Below, piece by piece: positions 2,846-28,238 of a stretch of 37,015 nt of DNA. This DNA comes from Gammaproteobacteria bacterium (GTDB lineage Bacteria; Pseudomonadota; Gammaproteobacteria; QZLD01): NCBI GenBank assembly GCA_004796365.1, contig QZLE01000065.1, positions 1-37,015 of the forward strand. Direction: 5' to 3'. Position numbers and translations under genes: made by a program. The number at the start of each line of letters is the position of its first letter. Position 1 is the stretch's first letter. The notes beneath the pieces are model-generated. The model saw only the letters and a list, made by a program, of their open reading frames with translations. It made no database searches and was not told the DNA's origin.

Positions 2846-4261
2846 CTATATACGACCATAGTTGTCCTGTAGACGAATAATATCATCTTCTCCCAGATAG
2901 TCACCACATTGCACTTCAATTAGTTGCAAATCAGTACCTCCAATATTAGTAAGGCGATGCACCGCCTCTTTCTCAATATAGATTGACTGGTTGGCTTCAA
3001 GAACTTTAGTTTCCGCGCCATTGACCACCTCAGCCTTACCCACAACAACTGTCCAATGTTCACTACGGTGCATATGTTTTTGCAACGACAGGGATTGTCC
3101 AGGAAACACAACAATTTTCTTCACTTTGTAGCCAGCAGATTCAATTAGGTTAGTATACCCCCCCCAAGGGCGCCTAGTAGTTTTTTTCTCGCTGTATTCC
3201 GGTCTTTGCCCCTGCTTTAAGGCCTCAACAACCTTCTTAACATCCTGAACCTTATCCTTGTGCACTACTAAGGTAGCATCTTCATCATTCACAACAACAA
3301 TATCATTTACACCAACAACTGCTGTTAAGCGCTGCTTACTATCGACCAAACAATTATTAGAATCGATAGCTATCACATCACCTTCAACAGCATTACCATT
3401 ACTGTCCTCATCAAATACATCTGCCATAGCTGCCCAAGAACCAATATCATTCCACTCAAATGCAGCTGATACTACGGCAACATTATTTGCCTTTTCCATA
3501 ACAGCATAATCAATAGAATCACCTTCAACCCGTTTAAGTGAATCTGCATCAAGAACCAGCGGAAGGCTATCTGCATTTGTCTGCTCCCAGCAGCTACTGA
3601 TTTGCTCAAACATTTCAGGTGTATATTGGCTCAGCGCTTCAAGAAAGGCACTTGCCTTAAAGCAAAACATACCTGAATTCCAAACAAACTTACCAGAAGC
3701 AAGATATTCCTGCGCCTTTCCTAAATCAGGCTTTTCCACAAATCTGAAGACCTCAAAACCAGATTCTGAAATCGAGCCTCCCTTTTCGATATAACCAAAA
3801 CCAGTTTCGGGATGGGTTGGCTCAATACCAAAGGTAGCTAAAAAATCTTGCTCAGCAAGCTCTACTGCATTATCAACCGCCAGCTGAAAAATATCCTGCT
3901 GCGAAATAAGATGATCCGCCGGCAATACCAACATAACCACATCTTCCCCAAATCGCTCTTTAACTCTAAAGGCTGCTGCTGCAATAGCCGGAGCAGTGTT
4001 TTTCCCAAACGGCTCTAATACGAAATCTAACTTCACACCATCACAGCTCTTTTCAAACTCTTCCCGCGTACGAAAATAATAATTTTGGTTTGTAACTACC
4101 AAAATATCTGCCACACCCGAAAGATTTGCTGCACGAGCAAAAGTTTTACCGATGATGGAATTGCCATCAGGCAATTGCATAAATGGCTTTGGATCTGATT
4201 CCCTGGAAACTGGCCATAAGCGTGCCCCGGCGCCGCCAGAAATAATTACTGGTATTAACAT
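2846..4261 (-). CDS. manC: mannose-1-phosphate guanylyltransferase / mannose-6-phosphate isomerase
   Basis: A 471-residue bifunctional ManC/AlgA/WbpW-type enzyme that makes GDP-mannose. The N-terminal nucleotidyltransferase carries a variant of the GGSGSRLWPLSR pyrophosphorylase signature, here GGAGARLWPVSRESDPKPF (9-27), and FVEKPD. The C-terminal type II phosphomannose isomerase cupin carries GQSLSLQKHMHRSEHW. No manB, gmd or other GDP-mannose gene lies in the window, so the mannose may be used as such or the partner genes are elsewhere. A run of eight C (3158-3165 on the plus strand; eight G in the mRNA) encodes part of the conserved PWGGY motif joining the domains. A one-base slip there would remove the isomerase domain. 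Confidence 0.92.
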   Translation of the reverse strand: MLIPVIISGGAGARLWPVSRESDPKPFMQLPDGNSIIGKTFARAANLSGVADILVVTNQNYYFRTREEFEKSCDGVKLDFVLEPFGKNTAPAIAAAAFRVKERFGEDVVMLVLPADHLISQQDIFQLAVDNAVELAEQDFLATFGIEPTHPETGFGYIEKGGSISESGFEVFRFVEKPDLGKAQEYLASGKFVWNSGMFCFKASAFLEALSQYTPEMFEQISSCWEQTNADSLPLVLDADSLKRVEGDSIDYAVMEKANNVAVVSAAFEWNDIGSWAAMADVFDEDSNGNAVEGDVIAIDSNNCLVDSKQRLTAVVGVNDIVVVNDEDATLVVHKDKVQDVKKVVEALKQGQRPEYSEKKTTRRPWGGYTNLIESAGYKVKKIVVFPGQSLSLQKHMHRSEHWTVVVGKAEVVNGAETKVLEANQSIYIEKEAVHRLTNIGGTDLQLIEVQCGDYLGEDDIIRLQDNYGRI

Positions 4262-12493: not shown

Positions 12494-14557
12494 ATGGGTA
12501 TAAAGAAAAAAATTGTTGCAATTGTTCAAGCTCGAATGGGGTCATCTCGATTACCAGGCAAAAGCATGGCAGACGTAGCAGGAACACCTTTAATAAACCG
12601 CGTACTAATGCAACTAAAAGGCAGTTCACTACTTGATGAAATTGTAGTTGCCACCAGCACCTCTTCAGAAGATGATATTATTGAAGAGTTTGTAAATAGC
12701 AAAGGCTTTCTTGTAACCAGAGGGCCTATAGATGATGTACTTACTCGATATAACATAGCTGCAGAAATTTCAAAGGCAGACATCATTATTCGTATAACAG
12801 CTGATTGCCCACTACATTCAGGCGATACGATAGATGAAGTTATAAATGACTTTTTAACTAACGATGCTGACTATGCTTGCAATACAAATCCTTATACGAG
12901 ACCCGATGGTCAGGACGTGGAAGTTTTTACTAGAAATGTCCTAACTCTTGCATCCAAGCATGCTTTGCAAGGACCAGATAGAGAACATGTTACCCCCTGG
13001 ATTAAACGTAATAGTGAAATCAAAAAACTTGATGTTCTGCACTCCCCCCCCCACCAGCCATCAATGCGATGGTCCGTTGATTACCCTGATGATCTAGAAT
13101 TTGCACGTACAATTTGGTCATACCTTGACCAAATTGGAACTAAACCATTTAACTTCGAGGATATTATGTCAGCTGTCATTAATAGTGGCGCCAAGCAAGG
13201 TGCTGCAATTATCAACGAAGGATTTTATCTTTCTATATATAATGAAGCTTCTGCAGAAGCTGCACCAGCACTTTCTCTTGAAAAGAGTTTTTCTTGGTTG
13301 GAACGAAGCGAACAGGTTATTCCTGGAGGCGCTCAAACCTATTCAAAAAGCTGGCGCCATCACATAAGAGGAGTCACACCTATTTTTCTTGAAAGAGGTG
13401 ATGGCGCAATTGTTACAGATGTCGACAACAATGAATACGTGGACTTAATCCAAGGTTTGCTGCCAAATATCCTTGGTTACGCTAACAAAGAAGTAAACCA
13501 AGCCGCATATGATCGTGCCAGCAATGGTCACAGTTTTTCTCTTGCTCACCCAATAGAAGTAGAGCTTGCTGAAAGACTATGTAACATTTTTCCTTGTGCT
13601 GAAATGGTCAGATTTGGCAAAAATGGTTCGGACGCAACAGCAGGTGCTGTTCGCGTTGCACGAGCCTATACAGAACGAGAACATGTAGCAGTTTGTGGAT
13701 ATCACGGATGGCAAGACTGGTTCATTGGAACAACGTCACGCTCAGCTGGGGTACCTAAAGGGGTTCAAGAACTTGCACATCCTTTTCCATACAATGATAC
13801 TGATGCATTAGAGGAACTTCTATCCAGTAAACCTGGACAGTTTGCTGCTGTGATCATGGAACCTGTTAATTTTATTTGGCCTGAACCGGGATATCTTGAA
13901 AAAGTTAAAGAGATCACCCATCGCCATGGTGCACTATTGATCTTTGATGAAATTTGTTCAGGATTCCATTTTGGTTTAGGCGGAGCTCAAAAACTATTTG
14001 GAGTAACTCCTGACCTAGCTACTCTAGGAAAAGCAATTGGAAACGGTTGGCCAATAAGCTGCGTCGTCGGCAAACGTGAAATAATGAAAACTTTTGAAGA
14101 TGCTTTTGTTAGCTTCACCTTCGCAGGTGATGTTTCTGCTATGGCAGCTGCAATGAAAGTATTAGATATACTTGAATCAGGTAATGCTTATGCACGTATG
14201 AGTGCTGCTGGCACTAAATTATTTGATGGAGCACGAGTTATGGCATCCGCAGCAGGGTTGGGGGATGCATTCCAATTAAAAGGGCATCCTCATTGGTCAA
14301 TCTTTTCTTTCGTTGATGAAAATGGTGAAGATGATCCAGCAACTAGAGCTTTATGGATTCAAGAAGTGACTCGCAAAGGGGTATTAATTCTGACAACATT
14401 TAATATCTCTGCCGCTCTCGATGATTCTTCTGTCACAACAGCATTATCAGCTTTTGCTCATGCATTTAAGAGAGTTGCTAAAGCAAAATCCCTCGGCATT
14501 CCCCCGGAATCTTGGCTTGATGGCCCAATACCAGTTCCTGCTTTTCGAGCTAGATAA
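12494..14557 (+). CDS. fusion: SpsF-like cytidylyltransferase + class III aminotransferase
   Basis: A 687-residue two-domain protein. Residues about 5-245 form an SpsF/NeuA-like cytidylyltransferase (VAIVQARMGSSRLPGKSM, ITADCPL, REHVTPWI, MRWSVDYPDDLEFAR), expected to activate an acidic sugar as its CMP derivative. Residues about 265-675 form a PLP-dependent class III aminotransferase like glutamate-1-semialdehyde aminomutase, with GKNGSDATAGAVRVAR, YHGWQDWF, LIFDEICSGF and the PLP lysine Lys513 in TLGKAIGNG. The two activities, often separate in sps-type loci, are joined here, suggesting they serve one pathway. A nine-C run at 13044-13052 falls in codons 184-187, inside the first domain. Confidence 0.88.
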   Translation: MGIKKKIVAIVQARMGSSRLPGKSMADVAGTPLINRVLMQLKGSSLLDEIVVATSTSSEDDIIEEFVNSKGFLVTRGPIDDVLTRYNIAAEISKADIIIRITADCPLHSGDTIDEVINDFLTNDADYACNTNPYTRPDGQDVEVFTRNVLTLASKHALQGPDREHVTPWIKRNSEIKKLDVLHSPPHQPSMRWSVDYPDDLEFARTIWSYLDQIGTKPFNFEDIMSAVINSGAKQGAAIINEGFYLSIYNEASAEAAPALSLEKSFSWLERSEQVIPGGAQTYSKSWRHHIRGVTPIFLERGDGAIVTDVDNNEYVDLIQGLLPNILGYANKEVNQAAYDRASNGHSFSLAHPIEVELAERLCNIFPCAEMVRFGKNGSDATAGAVRVARAYTEREHVAVCGYHGWQDWFIGTTSRSAGVPKGVQELAHPFPYNDTDALEELLSSKPGQFAAVIMEPVNFIWPEPGYLEKVKEITHRHGALLIFDEICSGFHFGLGGAQKLFGVTPDLATLGKAIGNGWPISCVVGKREIMKTFEDAFVSFTFAGDVSAMAAAMKVLDILESGNAYARMSAAGTKLFDGARVMASAAGLGDAFQLKGHPHWSIFSFVDENGEDDPATRALWIQEVTRKGVLILTTFNISAALDDSSVTTALSAFAHAFKRVAKAKSLGIPPESWLDGPIPVPAFRAR

Positions 14558-14620: not shown

Positions 14621-16084
14621 ATGGAATTCACAATTCTCACAATAGGCTGGGAGCCTGATTTTATAAATGAATTACTTGGCCCAATAGAAAAACAGCTAGA
14701 TATTAGTTTTATTCATGGTCTTGTTGGTGATTCATCACGTATTACACCAGCAAAAAAAGAGTACCCTAATCTAAATTTTATTTCTGTTTCTAAAACAAAG
14801 AACGAACCTTTACCTGCTACAGATTTTGAACTTCTTGCAAGTTTAGAAAGCCCTGGAATCCCAACAATTAAAAGTATGATTCAAGGCGATAGAGTTCTTA
14901 GAAACAGAAATGAAAACGAATCGCTTGGATATGCAACACTGCTTGCAACCAATATTAAAAAGGCAATATTAGATATCAAACCTGACTTAGTCCTAGGATC
15001 TCATGATAGCATCCATTCGGGCATAAGTTTAGCTGTAGCAAAATCGCTTGAAATTCCTTGGGTAGCAATGGCTTTTCCTGTAATACCGGAAAACCTAACT
15101 GGCTTTTGCTACAGCCTAACTCCAAACTCGCTTGTCCAAGTTACCACACAAGAACCTCAACATTATATTGATACCGCTAAATCCATTATTGAAAATGTAC
15201 GCTCACAGAAACAAAAGGTTGTAGCATATCGTGCTCCAACCACCATTTCTCAATGGATGAAGCAATATCTATTGCACTACAAAAATCTCTTACGTAGAAA
15301 GCAACAGTCAGAAATATTAGGAATAGATCATTTTATATATTCATCTGCAATAGAGCGTATTTCAGATATAATTCGTAGATCATGCAATCGCTTACGTCTT
15401 CCAGCAAAGAGATTTATTAATTCCCCCCCTAAATCAAAGTATGTATATTTCCCCTTACATATGGCACCTGAATCAATGCTTGATACATGGTCTCCATATT
15501 ATCAAGACCAACTTTCTTTTATAACCCAGCTCTCATTATCTATTCCTATAGACATTGAATTTGTTATTAAACTGCACTTTAGCGACCCCAATAATTACAG
15601 CTATAGCCAATTAAATCGTTTAATGAACATGCCAAAGCTTAAAATAGCTCATCCGAATGCATCTGGAAATGAATTCCTAAAGAACGCGGCTCTTATTATT
15701 GGCATACAGGGAACATCTTGTTTGGAAGCTGCTCTAGAAGGGAAACCCGTACTTCTTTTTGGAGATTCACCATACCTCCATTTCCCTAGAACAGAGCGAG
15801 CAAAGCGTCCTGATGAAATATTTAATCAGATAAAAGAAATGCTTAACCAACCTGAGCCTACTAGAGAAGAAATTGTTAAACAATATGCTGTATATTTGTC
15901 AAGATATTTACCAGGGCGCGTGAATGATTGGTCAAGACCAACTACACAAGCAGACCTTAACAGGTATTCTGATTGTTTTAACTCATTGAGAAATTATCTT
16001 CAAATAGCAAATAATCGTAACAATTGGTATAAAAAGCCTCCTTTTGTTGCTTACAAACAAGGCGACCTTTACCCATCAAAATGA
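14621..16084 (+). CDS. KpsC/Capsule_synth-like GT-B glycosyltransferase
   Basis: A 487-residue protein with no membrane helices. The second half has features of the capsule synthesis (KpsC/KpsS) and related GT-B transferases: YVYFPLHMAPESMLDTW, then a dQlsfi helix, FVIKLHFSDPN, and the donor-site-like stretch IGIQGTSCLEAALEGKPVLLFGDSPY. The N-terminal half (DLVLGSHDSIHSGISLAVAKSLEIPWV) fits the acceptor lobe. Family members often use CMP-activated keto-acid sugars such as CMP-Kdo, so it is a reasonable candidate to transfer the product of the preceding cassette. Its stop overlaps the next gene by ATGA (16081-16084). A seven-C run occurs at 15423-15429. Substrate is inferred from position only. 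Confidence 0.65.
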   Translation: MEFTILTIGWEPDFINELLGPIEKQLDISFIHGLVGDSSRITPAKKEYPNLNFISVSKTKNEPLPATDFELLASLESPGIPTIKSMIQGDRVLRNRNENESLGYATLLATNIKKAILDIKPDLVLGSHDSIHSGISLAVAKSLEIPWVAMAFPVIPENLTGFCYSLTPNSLVQVTTQEPQHYIDTAKSIIENVRSQKQKVVAYRAPTTISQWMKQYLLHYKNLLRRKQQSEILGIDHFIYSSAIERISDIIRRSCNRLRLPAKRFINSPPKSKYVYFPLHMAPESMLDTWSPYYQDQLSFITQLSLSIPIDIEFVIKLHFSDPNNYSYSQLNRLMNMPKLKIAHPNASGNEFLKNAALIIGIQGTSCLEAALEGKPVLLFGDSPYLHFPRTERAKRPDEIFNQIKEMLNQPEPTREEIVKQYAVYLSRYLPGRVNDWSRPTTQADLNRYSDCFNSLRNYLQIANNRNNWYKKPPFVAYKQGDLYPSK

Positions 16085-18238: not shown

Positions 18239-19396
18239 ATGAAACAAAACATAGATGAATTAGCCAAATTTAAAATCGCTTTTTTTCTGCAAAGCCTTGC
18301 GGGGGGGGGAGCCGAGAGGGCTATCGTTGCTTTAGCGGGAGCAATTGCAGATCAAGGATTCACTGTTGATCTAGTCATAGGGGATGCACAAAGTGATTAC
18401 CATTCCGAAATAGCCTCGAATGTTAATGTCCATGATTTTTCAACGCGATCACCTGTGAAAACTATGCGCTGTCTGATGGCATATCTACGATATCATAACC
18501 CACAAGTAATTATGTCGGCCCTTGACATACCAAATCTAATGCTGATCATTTCAGCCAAACTCGTTGGTTACAAAGGAAAAATCTTTATCAGCCAAAGAGC
18601 TGTTATTGACGCAAGTTTGCGCAACCTTAAACCTTGCAGAAGAATCATAACAGCCTTTCTGCAAAAACTTCTTTTCCCGTATGCAGATACACTAATAAGC
18701 AATTCCAAAGCAGCTGCTAACGAGTTACTAAATAGACTTAGCATTCCTGCTGAGAAAATAATTACAATTCAAAATGCGATTGATTCAGAAAGAATATACA
18801 AATTATCATTAGAGCCGCTACATGATAAATTTATTGAGGAAAATTCCCTACCAGTAATTCTTACAATTGGAAGTTTGACCAAACGCAAGGATATACAGAC
18901 ACTGATCAAGGCCATTGCAATTGTTATTAAACACAAAAAAGTAAAATTAGTTATTCTCGGCAAAGGTCCGGAGCAAAAAAATATAGACACATTAATTTCT
19001 AAGCTGAACCTGGAAGAATATATCCATCTACCAGGATTTGATGTAAATCCATACAAATGGATTGCGGCATCGTCGGTATTTGTTAGTTCTTCAACTGAAG
19101 AAGGTTTTCCAAATGTAATTGCTGAAGCACTTGCACTAAACTGCCCTGTAGTTGCTACTGATTGCCCAGGAGATACAAGTGATCTGTTAGAGTTCGGCAA
19201 ATGGGGAAAACTTGTACCCGTTGGTCATGTAGAGCAAATGTCAGAGGCTATACTGACTACCATTAACGCCTCAAATAATCCTGATGGTCGTAAACGAGCT
19301 GCTGATTTTACTCCGGACAAAGTGACAGCAGCCTATCTAGAAGCTCTTATGTCAATGCAATGTCAAACTAGCAGCAACATTTGGAGACAGGAATAA
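18239..19396 (+). CDS. GT4-family glycosyltransferase
   Basis: A 385-residue GT-B fold transferase. The N-terminal motif LAGGGAERAIVALAGAI is typical of GT4 enzymes. The C-terminal donor domain has TIGSLTKRKDIQTLIKA, LVILGKGPEQ, IHLPGFDVNPYKWIAAS and the E-x7-E motif in EEGFPNVIAEAL, followed by NCPVVATDCPG. It would add one sugar to the lipid-linked unit on the cytoplasmic face. Codons 21-24 (AGGG) are written as nine consecutive G (18301-18309), an unusual choice in this AT-rich DNA. A slip at this point would abolish almost the whole protein, so the gene is a candidate on/off switch. The next gene begins 5 bases downstream. Confidence 0.88.
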   Translation: MKQNIDELAKFKIAFFLQSLAGGGAERAIVALAGAIADQGFTVDLVIGDAQSDYHSEIASNVNVHDFSTRSPVKTMRCLMAYLRYHNPQVIMSALDIPNLMLIISAKLVGYKGKIFISQRAVIDASLRNLKPCRRIITAFLQKLLFPYADTLISNSKAAANELLNRLSIPAEKIITIQNAIDSERIYKLSLEPLHDKFIEENSLPVILTIGSLTKRKDIQTLIKAIAIVIKHKKVKLVILGKGPEQKNIDTLISKLNLEEYIHLPGFDVNPYKWIAASSVFVSSSTEEGFPNVIAEALALNCPVVATDCPGDTSDLLEFGKWGKLVPVGHVEQMSEAILTTINASNNPDGRKRAADFTPDKVTAAYLEALMSMQCQTSSNIWRQE

Positions 19397-25704: not shown

Positions 25705-26838
25705 ATGACTGAAACAGTAGTATGTACAAATTGCGTTATGGACACAACCGATTCCATGATAGTTTTTGATGACAAAGGAGTGTGTGATCACTGTAATACG
25801 TATTATAATCATACTCTACCAAATTGGCATACTGATGAGCGAGGCCAACAAGAACTTGATGCTTATGTTGAATCGATTAAGCAAGCAGGTAAAGGAAAAG
25901 ACTTCGATTGCATTATTGGAATGAGCGGAGGAATTGATAGCTCATACTTAACTTATATTGCAAAAGAAAAACTAGGTCTCCGCCCCCTAGTTTTTCATGT
26001 TGATGCTGGCTGGAATTCTCAAATTGCCGTTAATAACATTGAAAGATTAGTTGATGGTTTAGGGCTGGATTTATATACAGAAGTAATTAATTGGGAGGAA
26101 ATGAAGGACCTTCAGCTAGCTTTTTTCAAATCAGGCGTTCCCCATATCGATGCGCCTCAAGATAATGCTTTTTTCGCTACTATGTACAAATTTGCTGAAG
26201 AGTACAATGTAAATAATATTTTGACAGGGGCAAATTTATCAACAGAATGTGTACGAAATCCAGTTGAATGGATGTATTTTCAATCTGACTCAGTTCAACT
26301 AAAAGATATTCATCGCCGATTTGGACGCAAACCACTGATTAATTATCCAACGACTTCAATTGTAAAACATAAAATATATTTGCCTTATATTAAAAAAATT
26401 CGTGTCATAAGACCTCTGAATTATATACCCTATATAAAAGAAGATGCGATCAATATTTTAAGTGATAAATTTGGCTGGCAACCTTACCCTCAAAAACATT
26501 TTGAATCACGCTTCACGCGATTTTATGAGAGCTATTGGTTGCCGAAAAAATTTGGTTACGACACCCGCAAAGTACAATTTTCAAGTTTAATATTAACAGG
26601 GCAGATGACTCGAGATGAGGCCTTAGAAAAGCTAAAACACCCAGCTTATGATCCAGAAACCATCAATCAAGATATAGAGTTTGTGGCAACAAAACTTGGA
26701 ATTTCAGTTGAAGAGCTAGAAGGTTATCTTGAAGCCCCCAATAAAACATATCGTGACTACCGATCTCAAGCTTGGCTATATGATTTAGGCTCAAAAATGA
26801 TGAAGTTTTTACAAATGGAAGTTGGAGGCAAACGTTGA
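25705..26838 (+). CDS. wbpG: N-acetyl sugar amidotransferase (WbpG/PseA family)
   Basis: A 377-residue ATP-PPi type amidotransferase that converts an N-acetyl group on a sugar to an acetamidino group, using ammonia supplied by the HisH/HisF-like partners. It has an N-terminal four-cysteine site (Cys7, Cys10, Cys27, Cys30; CTNCVMD and CDHCNTY), the PP-loop IGMSGGIDSSYL (near 76) and GANLSTECVRNP. Length matches WbpG of Pseudomonas aeruginosa and PseA of Campylobacter. The stop overlaps the TTG start of the hisH-like gene (TTGA, 26835-26838), showing tight coupling. The acceptor is unclear: the WbpA/B/D/E/I enzymes of the ManNAc3NAmA pathway are absent, so a nonulosonate or HexNAc uronate is possible. 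Confidence 0.9.
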   Translation: MTETVVCTNCVMDTTDSMIVFDDKGVCDHCNTYYNHTLPNWHTDERGQQELDAYVESIKQAGKGKDFDCIIGMSGGIDSSYLTYIAKEKLGLRPLVFHVDAGWNSQIAVNNIERLVDGLGLDLYTEVINWEEMKDLQLAFFKSGVPHIDAPQDNAFFATMYKFAEEYNVNNILTGANLSTECVRNPVEWMYFQSDSVQLKDIHRRFGRKPLINYPTTSIVKHKIYLPYIKKIRVIRPLNYIPYIKEDAINILSDKFGWQPYPQKHFESRFTRFYESYWLPKKFGYDTRKVQFSSLILTGQMTRDEALEKLKHPAYDPETINQDIEFVATKLGISVEELEGYLEAPNKTYRDYRSQAWLYDLGSKMMKFLQMEVGGKR

Positions 26839-27452
26839 TAACCATCATTAATTATGGTTTAGGAAACATACAAGCCTTTTATGAAATTTATAAACGGCTC
26901 AACATCCCTGTCAATGTTGTTGAAACCCCGGGGCAACTAAAAAATATACAGCGTATTATTTTACCAGGAGTTGGGGCCTTTGACTGGGCAATGGGCAGGC
27001 TTAATTCATCAGGGATGCGAGAAGTTCTTGATGAATTAGTATTGGGGGAAAAATGTCCTGTCTTAGGGGTTTGCGTTGGGATGCAAATGATGGCACATAG
27101 CAGTGATGAAGGAAAACTTCCAGGACTAGGTTGGATTAACGCTCATGTAAAAAGATTTGATGACTCAAGATTTACACAAAAAACACACCTTCCTCATATG
27201 GGTTGGAATAATGTGGAACCAGTAATTAATGATAGCTTGTTTCATGAAATAAATTCGCCTAGATTCTATTTCCTCCATTCATATTATTTCCTTCCTAAAA
27301 AGCAGGAAAACGTTCTTGCGACAACGGACTATAACGGTACTTTTGTATCATCGGTTCGGGCAAATAATGTTTTCGGCACACAGTTTCATCCTGAGAAGAG
27401 CCATCAATGGGGTGTGCAGCTATTGAAGAACTTTGCAGAAAGAGAGATATAA
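26835..27452 (+). CDS. hisH: HisH-like glutaminase subunit of sugar amidotransferase
   Basis: A 205-residue class I glutamine amidotransferase. It shows INYGLGNIQAF, LPGVGAFDWAM, the nucleophile Cys80 in LGVCVGMQMM, LPHMGWN and the His/Glu pair in FGTQFHPEKSHQWG. It releases ammonia from glutamine for the amidotransferase encoded just before. The start codon is TTG, overlapping the wbpG stop by four bases. Context with wbpG and an altered HisF identifies it as the polysaccharide paralogue (HisH2 of Pseudomonas), not the histidine biosynthesis enzyme. Confidence 0.9.
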   Translation: MITIINYGLGNIQAFYEIYKRLNIPVNVVETPGQLKNIQRIILPGVGAFDWAMGRLNSSGMREVLDELVLGEKCPVLGVCVGMQMMAHSSDEGKLPGLGWINAHVKRFDDSRFTQKTHLPHMGWNNVEPVINDSLFHEINSPRFYFLHSYYFLPKKQENVLATTDYNGTFVSSVRANNVFGTQFHPEKSHQWGVQLLKNFAEREI

Positions 27453-27455
27453 CCG

Positions 27456-28238
27456 ATGTTGCGGCCAAGAATTATCCCTTGCCTGCTTATCCATAATAAA
27501 GGATTGGTAAAAACGGTGAAATTCGGTAACCCCAAATATGTCGGAGACCCAATTAATGCCGTCCGAATTTTTAATGAAAAAGAAGTGGACGAACTTATAG
27601 TTCTGGATATTGATGCGACAGTAGAAGGTCGTGAACCTGACTACACATTGATTCGAAATCTTGCATCTGAGTGCAGAATGCCGTTATGTTACGGAGGCGG
27701 AGTAACTTCTGTCGAACAAATTGAACGCATTGTAAGCCTAGGAGTTGAAAAAGTAGCAGTCAGTTCAGCAGTTATTGCCAATCCTAAGCTGGTATCCGAT
27801 GCGGCAAAAAGGGTTGGAAGTCAGAGCGTTGTAGTTGTTCTAGATGTCAAAAAAACTGGAATACTGCGACGTTTCGAGGTGTTTACTCACAATGCTAAAA
27901 AGAAAACCGGATTAAATCCAGTTGATTTTGCTCATCATCTTGAGCAATTAGGCGCAGGAGAAATTGTAATTAATTCAATAGAATTTGATGGTGAGATGAA
28001 AGGGTATGATAACGATCTAATTGAAAAAATCAGAAACGTTATTACGCTTCCTTTAACAACGTTAGGAGGAGCTGGCTCACTTAAAGATATTGAGAAAGTT
28101 ATTCAAAAATTCGGCATAATTGGCGCTGCAGCTGGAAGTCTTTTTGTATTTAAAGGGAAGTATCGCGCTGTATTAATTAATTACCCTAATCGTTCAGAGA
28201 AAGAAGATCTACTCAGACGCGCTGGAGCTATAGAGTAA
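27456..28238 (+). CDS. hisF: HisF-like ammonia-channel subunit of sugar amidotransferase
   Basis: A 260-residue TIM-barrel protein homologous to imidazole glycerol-phosphate synthase cyclase. It has RIIPCLLIHNKGLVKTVKF at the N-terminus, VLDIDATVEG, CYGGGVTS, VVVLDVKKTG with Asp130 and LTTLGGAGS. The catalytic Asp11 of true HisF (CLDV) is replaced by Leu11 (CLLI), so the histidine pathway reaction is unlikely. The barrel probably serves to channel ammonia from HisH to WbpG. It starts 3 bases after the hisH stop. Confidence 0.9.
   Translation: MLRPRIIPCLLIHNKGLVKTVKFGNPKYVGDPINAVRIFNEKEVDELIVLDIDATVEGREPDYTLIRNLASECRMPLCYGGGVTSVEQIERIVSLGVEKVAVSSAVIANPKLVSDAAKRVGSQSVVVVLDVKKTGILRRFEVFTHNAKKKTGLNPVDFAHHLEQLGAGEIVINSIEFDGEMKGYDNDLIEKIRNVITLPLTTLGGAGSLKDIEKVIQKFGIIGAAAGSLFVFKGKYRAVLINYPNRSEKEDLLRRAGAIE

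Follow-up and report, generated by a model that had tools for sequence, protein, structure and literature searches.

A nine-guanine tract in a GT4 glycosyltransferase gene of a gammaproteobacterial polysaccharide locus and its weight as evidence for phase variation

The tract, its gene and the surrounding locus

The stretch of DNA analysed here (37,015 nucleotides, hereafter the window) carries a polysaccharide cluster which, on the basis of Pfam matches, includes a mannose-1-phosphate guanylyltransferase-type enzyme and a Wzy_C protein. Searches with NCBIfam models add NeuB/PseI-like and PseB-like enzymes, a WbuX amidotransferase and a chain-length-like protein, with only the WbuX match exceeding its curated cut-off. 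The WbuX gene is followed by two further genes (25705-28238 for the three together), which, judged from their sequences, are probably HisH-like and HisF-like. Elsewhere in the cluster, a cytidylyltransferase domain and a class-III aminotransferase domain are joined in a single gene (Table 1).

An earlier note on this DNA had described nine consecutive G residues encoding the Ala-Gly-Gly-Gly of a GGGAER motif, and both the sequence and the reading frame bear this out. The run is bounded by C at position 18300 and A at position 18310 on the forward strand, and the codons across it (GCG GGG GGG GGA GCC GAG AGG) specify A21 G22 G23 G24 A25 E26 R27. The gene had been assigned to the GT4 family, correctly so, because matches to the Pfam families Glyco_trans_1_4 (E-value 1.7e-29; 103.3 bits against a cut-off of 27), Glycos_transf_1 (4.1e-27; 95.2 against 26.4) and Glyco_transf_4 (1.8e-14; 54.6 against 28.5) place both a group 1 C-terminal domain and a Glyco_transf_4 N-terminal domain above the family cut-offs. 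In having these domains together with an N-terminal glycine loop, the protein resembles GT4 glycosyltransferases that carry a Gly-Gly-Gly-Ala-Glu-Arg loop. PglJ (NF050063) is the top-scoring NCBIfam model for the gene, at 169.6 bits against a cut-off of 500 bits. Searching solved structures with the GT4 sequence returned GT4-type chains only, nearly all of them aligned outside the glycine loop and so uninformative on the tract. Promoter and terminator signals near the gene were predicted at about the level of shuffled sequence. The earlier note on the nine-G tract made no mention of the C9, C8 and C7 runs that are also present in the window.

Table 1. Homopolymeric runs in the window and the genes that contain them
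Feature	Coordinates	Strand	Remarks
Nine-G homopolymer	18301-18309	+	Third base of codon 21 (GCG), codons 22-23 (GGG GGG), first two bases of codon 24 (GGA)
GT4 glycosyltransferase gene	18239-19396	+	385 aa, intact ("on" configuration); tract lies inside its GGGAER loop
T7 run	18280-18286	+	In the GT4 gene, 14 bases upstream of the G tract; second, shorter slippable run
C9 run (Ser-Pro-Pro-His)	13044-13052	+	In intact cytidylyltransferase/class-III aminotransferase fusion gene, 12494-14557
C8 on + strand, read as G8 (Trp-Gly-Gly)	3158-3165	-	In intact mannose-1-phosphate guanylyltransferase-type gene, 2846-4261
C7 run (Ser-Pro-Pro-Lys)	15423-15429	+	In 487-aa gene 14621-16084, which has no Pfam match

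Computed translations agree with the earlier proposal that a slip would kill the enzyme near its N-terminus. Gain or loss of one or two G leaves truncated products of 31-43 residues (42 aa for a tract of 7 G, 31 aa for 8 G, 43 aa for 10 G and 32 aa for 11 G). Moreover, neither an alternative start nor an overlapping frame of any use for making a second product from a slipped tract was found, and the other two frames are open for at most 96 bases through the tract. Two properties expected of a contingency gene can be recognized here, the first being a homopolymer long enough to slip that lies inside a frame or promoter (the in-frame G9), and the second, found by computation only, being loss of the GT4 product at off-length tracts.

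Abundance of G/C runs in the window and in the genome

The window is AT-rich, as had been pointed out, with a GC content of 0.386, and alternatives to GGG were available, given that GGA (0.32) and GGT (0.30) are both used more often among glycine codons than GGG (0.17). In the window, glycine is encoded by GGG in 17.4% of cases and alanine by GCG in 8.0%, which gives a product of frequencies of 0.0024 for GCG GGG GGG. Similarly, of 50,000 synonymous-codon shuffles inside the GT4 gene, 0.31% placed a run of at least nine at the site. The excess extends to the window as a whole, in which a seven-G pattern has 9 overlapping matches where dinucleotide shuffles average 1.38 (0/100 shuffles reach 9). 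In its coding sequences, 3 G/C runs of at least eight are present as opposed to the 0.18 expected from synonymous shuffling (P 0.0003), and 2 runs of at least nine as opposed to 0.02. A/T runs of at least eight, on the other hand, are depleted in the same sequences (4 vs 10.8 expected), and the G/C runs are therefore not a sign of general laxity. By comparison, 398 kb sampled elsewhere in the same genome, taken as 20 stretches of which two were known beforehand to contain a run, show no G/C excess (1 coding run of at least eight vs 2.76 expected).

The genome itself is a 2.77 Mb draft in 201 contigs, 82.8% complete; among the genomes compared, its genus has no other member and its order just one more. 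It contains 14 G/C runs of at least eight bases (eight of 8, five of 9 and one of 10), three of which are located in the window. Given that the window is 1.3% of the genome, 0.19 would be expected (unadjusted P 0.0008). Conditioning on the reported tract, the probability that at least two of the other 13 runs fall in the window is 0.013, and a scan of the genome puts the chance of some triple of runs within 37 kb at 0.15 and within 15 kb at 0.03. We regard this clustering in the polysaccharide locus as weak positive evidence for a switch, suggestive rather than strong.

Runs of this length are also found well away from surface functions. Nine of the 11 runs outside the window lie in open genes that give no sign of a surface-sugar role, encoding an alpha/beta hydrolase (G9 in a GHSMGGG stretch), a cytidylyltransferase-like protein, a ketoacyl synthase, Mrp/NUBPL (G9), PrmC, a PHA synthase subunit, a sigma-54 activator, a rhomboid protein and one protein without a Pfam match. 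Of the remaining two, one immediately precedes the first start codon of a peptidase-M24 gene, and the other lies in no gene. Long tracts are thus distributed with 3/14 in this locus and 9/14 in other coding genes, several of which are core genes, and in all 12 tract-bearing coding genes the frame is open through the tract. The longest run in the genome, a G10, is the one in the sigma-54 activator gene (1577-1586 of L115, G000:C139). It is not conserved, its counterpart in the sister-genus genome (G001) being without a run and having different residues at this point.

Homologous loops and the sister genus

Efforts to find a close homologue of the GT4 protein were unsuccessful in every collection searched. 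Among 369 genomes of the class, 322 of which gave some match, the best identity is 35%; a genome-collection search returned three distant homologues only (22-26% identity), nothing in E. coli genomes matched, and plasmid matches are all below 60% identity. Of 29 homologous loci in the class, 27 have the loop as searched, and the longest G run at these loops is 8 in one case, 7 in one, 6 in two and at most 5 in 23. A nine-G run at the loop is therefore seen in none of the 27 distant homologues, with no ortholog having been found for a comparison of the orthologous site. In this respect the tract differs from its loop-bearing relatives in the class, and the protein motif alone does not force the run because these homologues encode it otherwise. 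We also scanned the 369 genomes with a DNA pattern encoding GGGAE(R/S), the codon after it having to begin with RT. This pattern misses the site in the window itself, which has Ala as its next residue, and its 70 sites, in 58 genomes, may include some outside GT4 genes. At only two of these sites are the first two glycines encoded by GGG GGG. One (G348) has its run antisense to the end of a 219-aa gene, and at the other (G333) the motif is read by no open frame of at least 40 aa, so that, judged from the frames rather than from family assignment, neither site appears to lie in a glycosyltransferase frame.

The sister-genus genome has 19 G/C runs of at least eight, including runs in the genes for MraY, GlnD, an amidohydrolase, an AcrB-type transporter and several histidine kinases. 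As in the genome under study, such runs fall at Gly-Gly or Pro-Pro codons of ordinary genes, including genes that could hardly be switched off. Tract length alone is consequently no marker of a switch here, since equal runs occur in housekeeping genes of both genomes. A surface locus is represented as well, because a G10 (6741-6750 of L102, C292) lies at about residue 92 of a 410-aa Wzy_C frame located between two glycosyltransferase matches. In the same genome, a remnant of a phage-integrase N-terminal domain, which is a decayed gene, changes frame exactly at a C9 run (contig positions 8077-8085 of C226, L097). In addition, a G9 (L092, 1596-1604) and a G8 (L094, 1557-1564) each sit immediately before an open frame's first start codon. 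One of the two precedes a gene with weak PKD-domain matches, and a slip there would alter the spacing to the start.

Mismatch repair was considered separately. MutS is present in the genome under study, and MutL was not found in this 82.8% complete draft with two Pfam families and the sister-genus protein as queries. The sister genus carries an intact mutL, which the sigma-54 activator gene adjoins there, whereas in our genome this gene adjoins a folD-like gene, and gene order therefore gave no answer. We rejected the loss of MutL as support for switching, given that the draft may simply lack the mutL-miaA segment; the sole MiaA match is a gene of 32% identity in other surroundings.

Readings of the tract

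Poly-G and poly-C tracts are well represented among contingency genes of pathogens. PMC4965091 counts 29 loci with poly-G or poly-C tracts of seven or more in C. jejuni NCTC11168, and gives switching frequencies of 0.004 and 0.02 for tracts of G8 and G11. The GT4 gene is like these phase-variable genes in having an in-frame G/C run of this length class at which a slip truncates the product. In C. jejuni, however, switching between colonies has been measured, whereas here the tract is known from the sequence of one genome, in which equal runs occur in housekeeping genes. A similar likeness exists to the poly-G contingency genes of meningococci, among which most homopolymers of at least eight bases varied in the genomes tested (PMC5084427) and G9 is an "on" length of hmbR (PMC4085013, PMC5084427). 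Meningococcal tracts have been compared among strains, whereas the tract here comes from a single genome, with MutS found and MutL not found in a draft of 82.8% completeness. According to PMC2831843, poly-G and poly-C tracts of more than 2 bases are as a rule under-represented in 99 prokaryote genomes. Our literature search found no paper combining phase variation, metagenome-assembled genomes, homopolymer and glycosyltransferase.

The earlier note had read the tract as a possible phase switch. The parts of that argument concerning the GT4 family and the truncating slips stand, and the polysaccharide locus and the switching of G8 and G11 tracts in Campylobacter (PMC4965091) support it; the equal runs in housekeeping genes and the lack of nine G in distant homologues weigh against the conclusion. 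We favor instead, with a probability of about 0.5, an incidental, slip-prone tract in an ordinary GT4 gene. On this account, the conserved Gly-Gly-Gly loop of the enzyme would simply happen to be spelled GCG-GGG-GGG-GGA, the run presumably arising from a three-glycine motif in a genome region that uses GGG for ~17% of its glycines. The nine-G run would then be a mutation-prone spot, at which above-average slipping may be expected by analogy with the work on Campylobacter and Neisseria, and would be tolerated in the same way as the similar runs in everyday genes of this genome. The probable outcome would be occasional loss-of-function mutants and revertants, with no maintained on/off programme. 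Several observations argue against this incidental origin: the window has an excess of runs, with none in the 398 kb taken from elsewhere; three of the genome's 14 runs cluster in it; long A/T runs are depleted in the same genes; none of the 27 distant homologues with the loop has the run; and the sister genus has its G10 in the Wzy_C gene of a glycosyltransferase locus.

The excess of runs in this locus and the sister-genus G10 are consistent with a contingency locus, in which the G9 of the GT4 gene, the C9 of the cytidylyltransferase/aminotransferase gene and the G8 of the guanylyltransferase-type gene would have been selected for switching individual sugar steps on and off. Support for this idea is also provided by the 5' position of the tract in the GT4 gene, where a slip truncates the product fully, and by the switching of G8 and G11 tracts in C. 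jejuni (PMC4965091). Nevertheless, all three tract-bearing genes of the window are in frame, runs of equal length occur in housekeeping genes, and distant homologues have no nine-G run at the loop; we therefore consider selection for switching possible but doubtful. The broader proposal, that slippage at poly-G and poly-C tracts independently switches several steps of one surface polysaccharide (guanylyltransferase, cytidylyltransferase/aminotransferase fusion and GT4, with a Wzy_C polymerase or ligase in the sister genus) in an uncultured lineage outside the classic pathogens, seems to us unlikely.

Relaxed selection would explain the excess in a different way, if polysaccharide genes that are dispensable and often exchanged do not have slip-prone runs purged as core genes do, with no selection for switching. 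The excess in the window and its absence from the background agree with this, as does the want of a close GT4 homologue (35% identity at best in the class), which is expected of exchanged genes. The integrase remnant of the sister genus, shifting frame exactly at its C9, likewise fits slippage where nothing preserves the frame. Long A/T runs are nonetheless depleted in the same window genes, and runs must therefore still be purged there; moreover, G/C runs are found in core genes too. We consider relaxed selection unlikely, and rank it just behind a contingency locus. Finally, homopolymers are error-prone in some sequencing methods and the genome is a fragmented draft, yet a true tract length other than nine is very unlikely because an assembly error would break the frame unless it were a multiple of three, and the frame is intact through the tract into full GT4 domains.

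If the tract does switch, this little-known lineage would possess a multi-gene contingency system for its surface sugars, which might, speculatively, serve in phage defence. If, as we think likelier, it is an incidental slip-prone run in an ordinary GT4 gene, the case would serve as a warning that the length of a tract in a sugar gene is insufficient evidence of a switch, since core genes of the same genome carry runs just as long.
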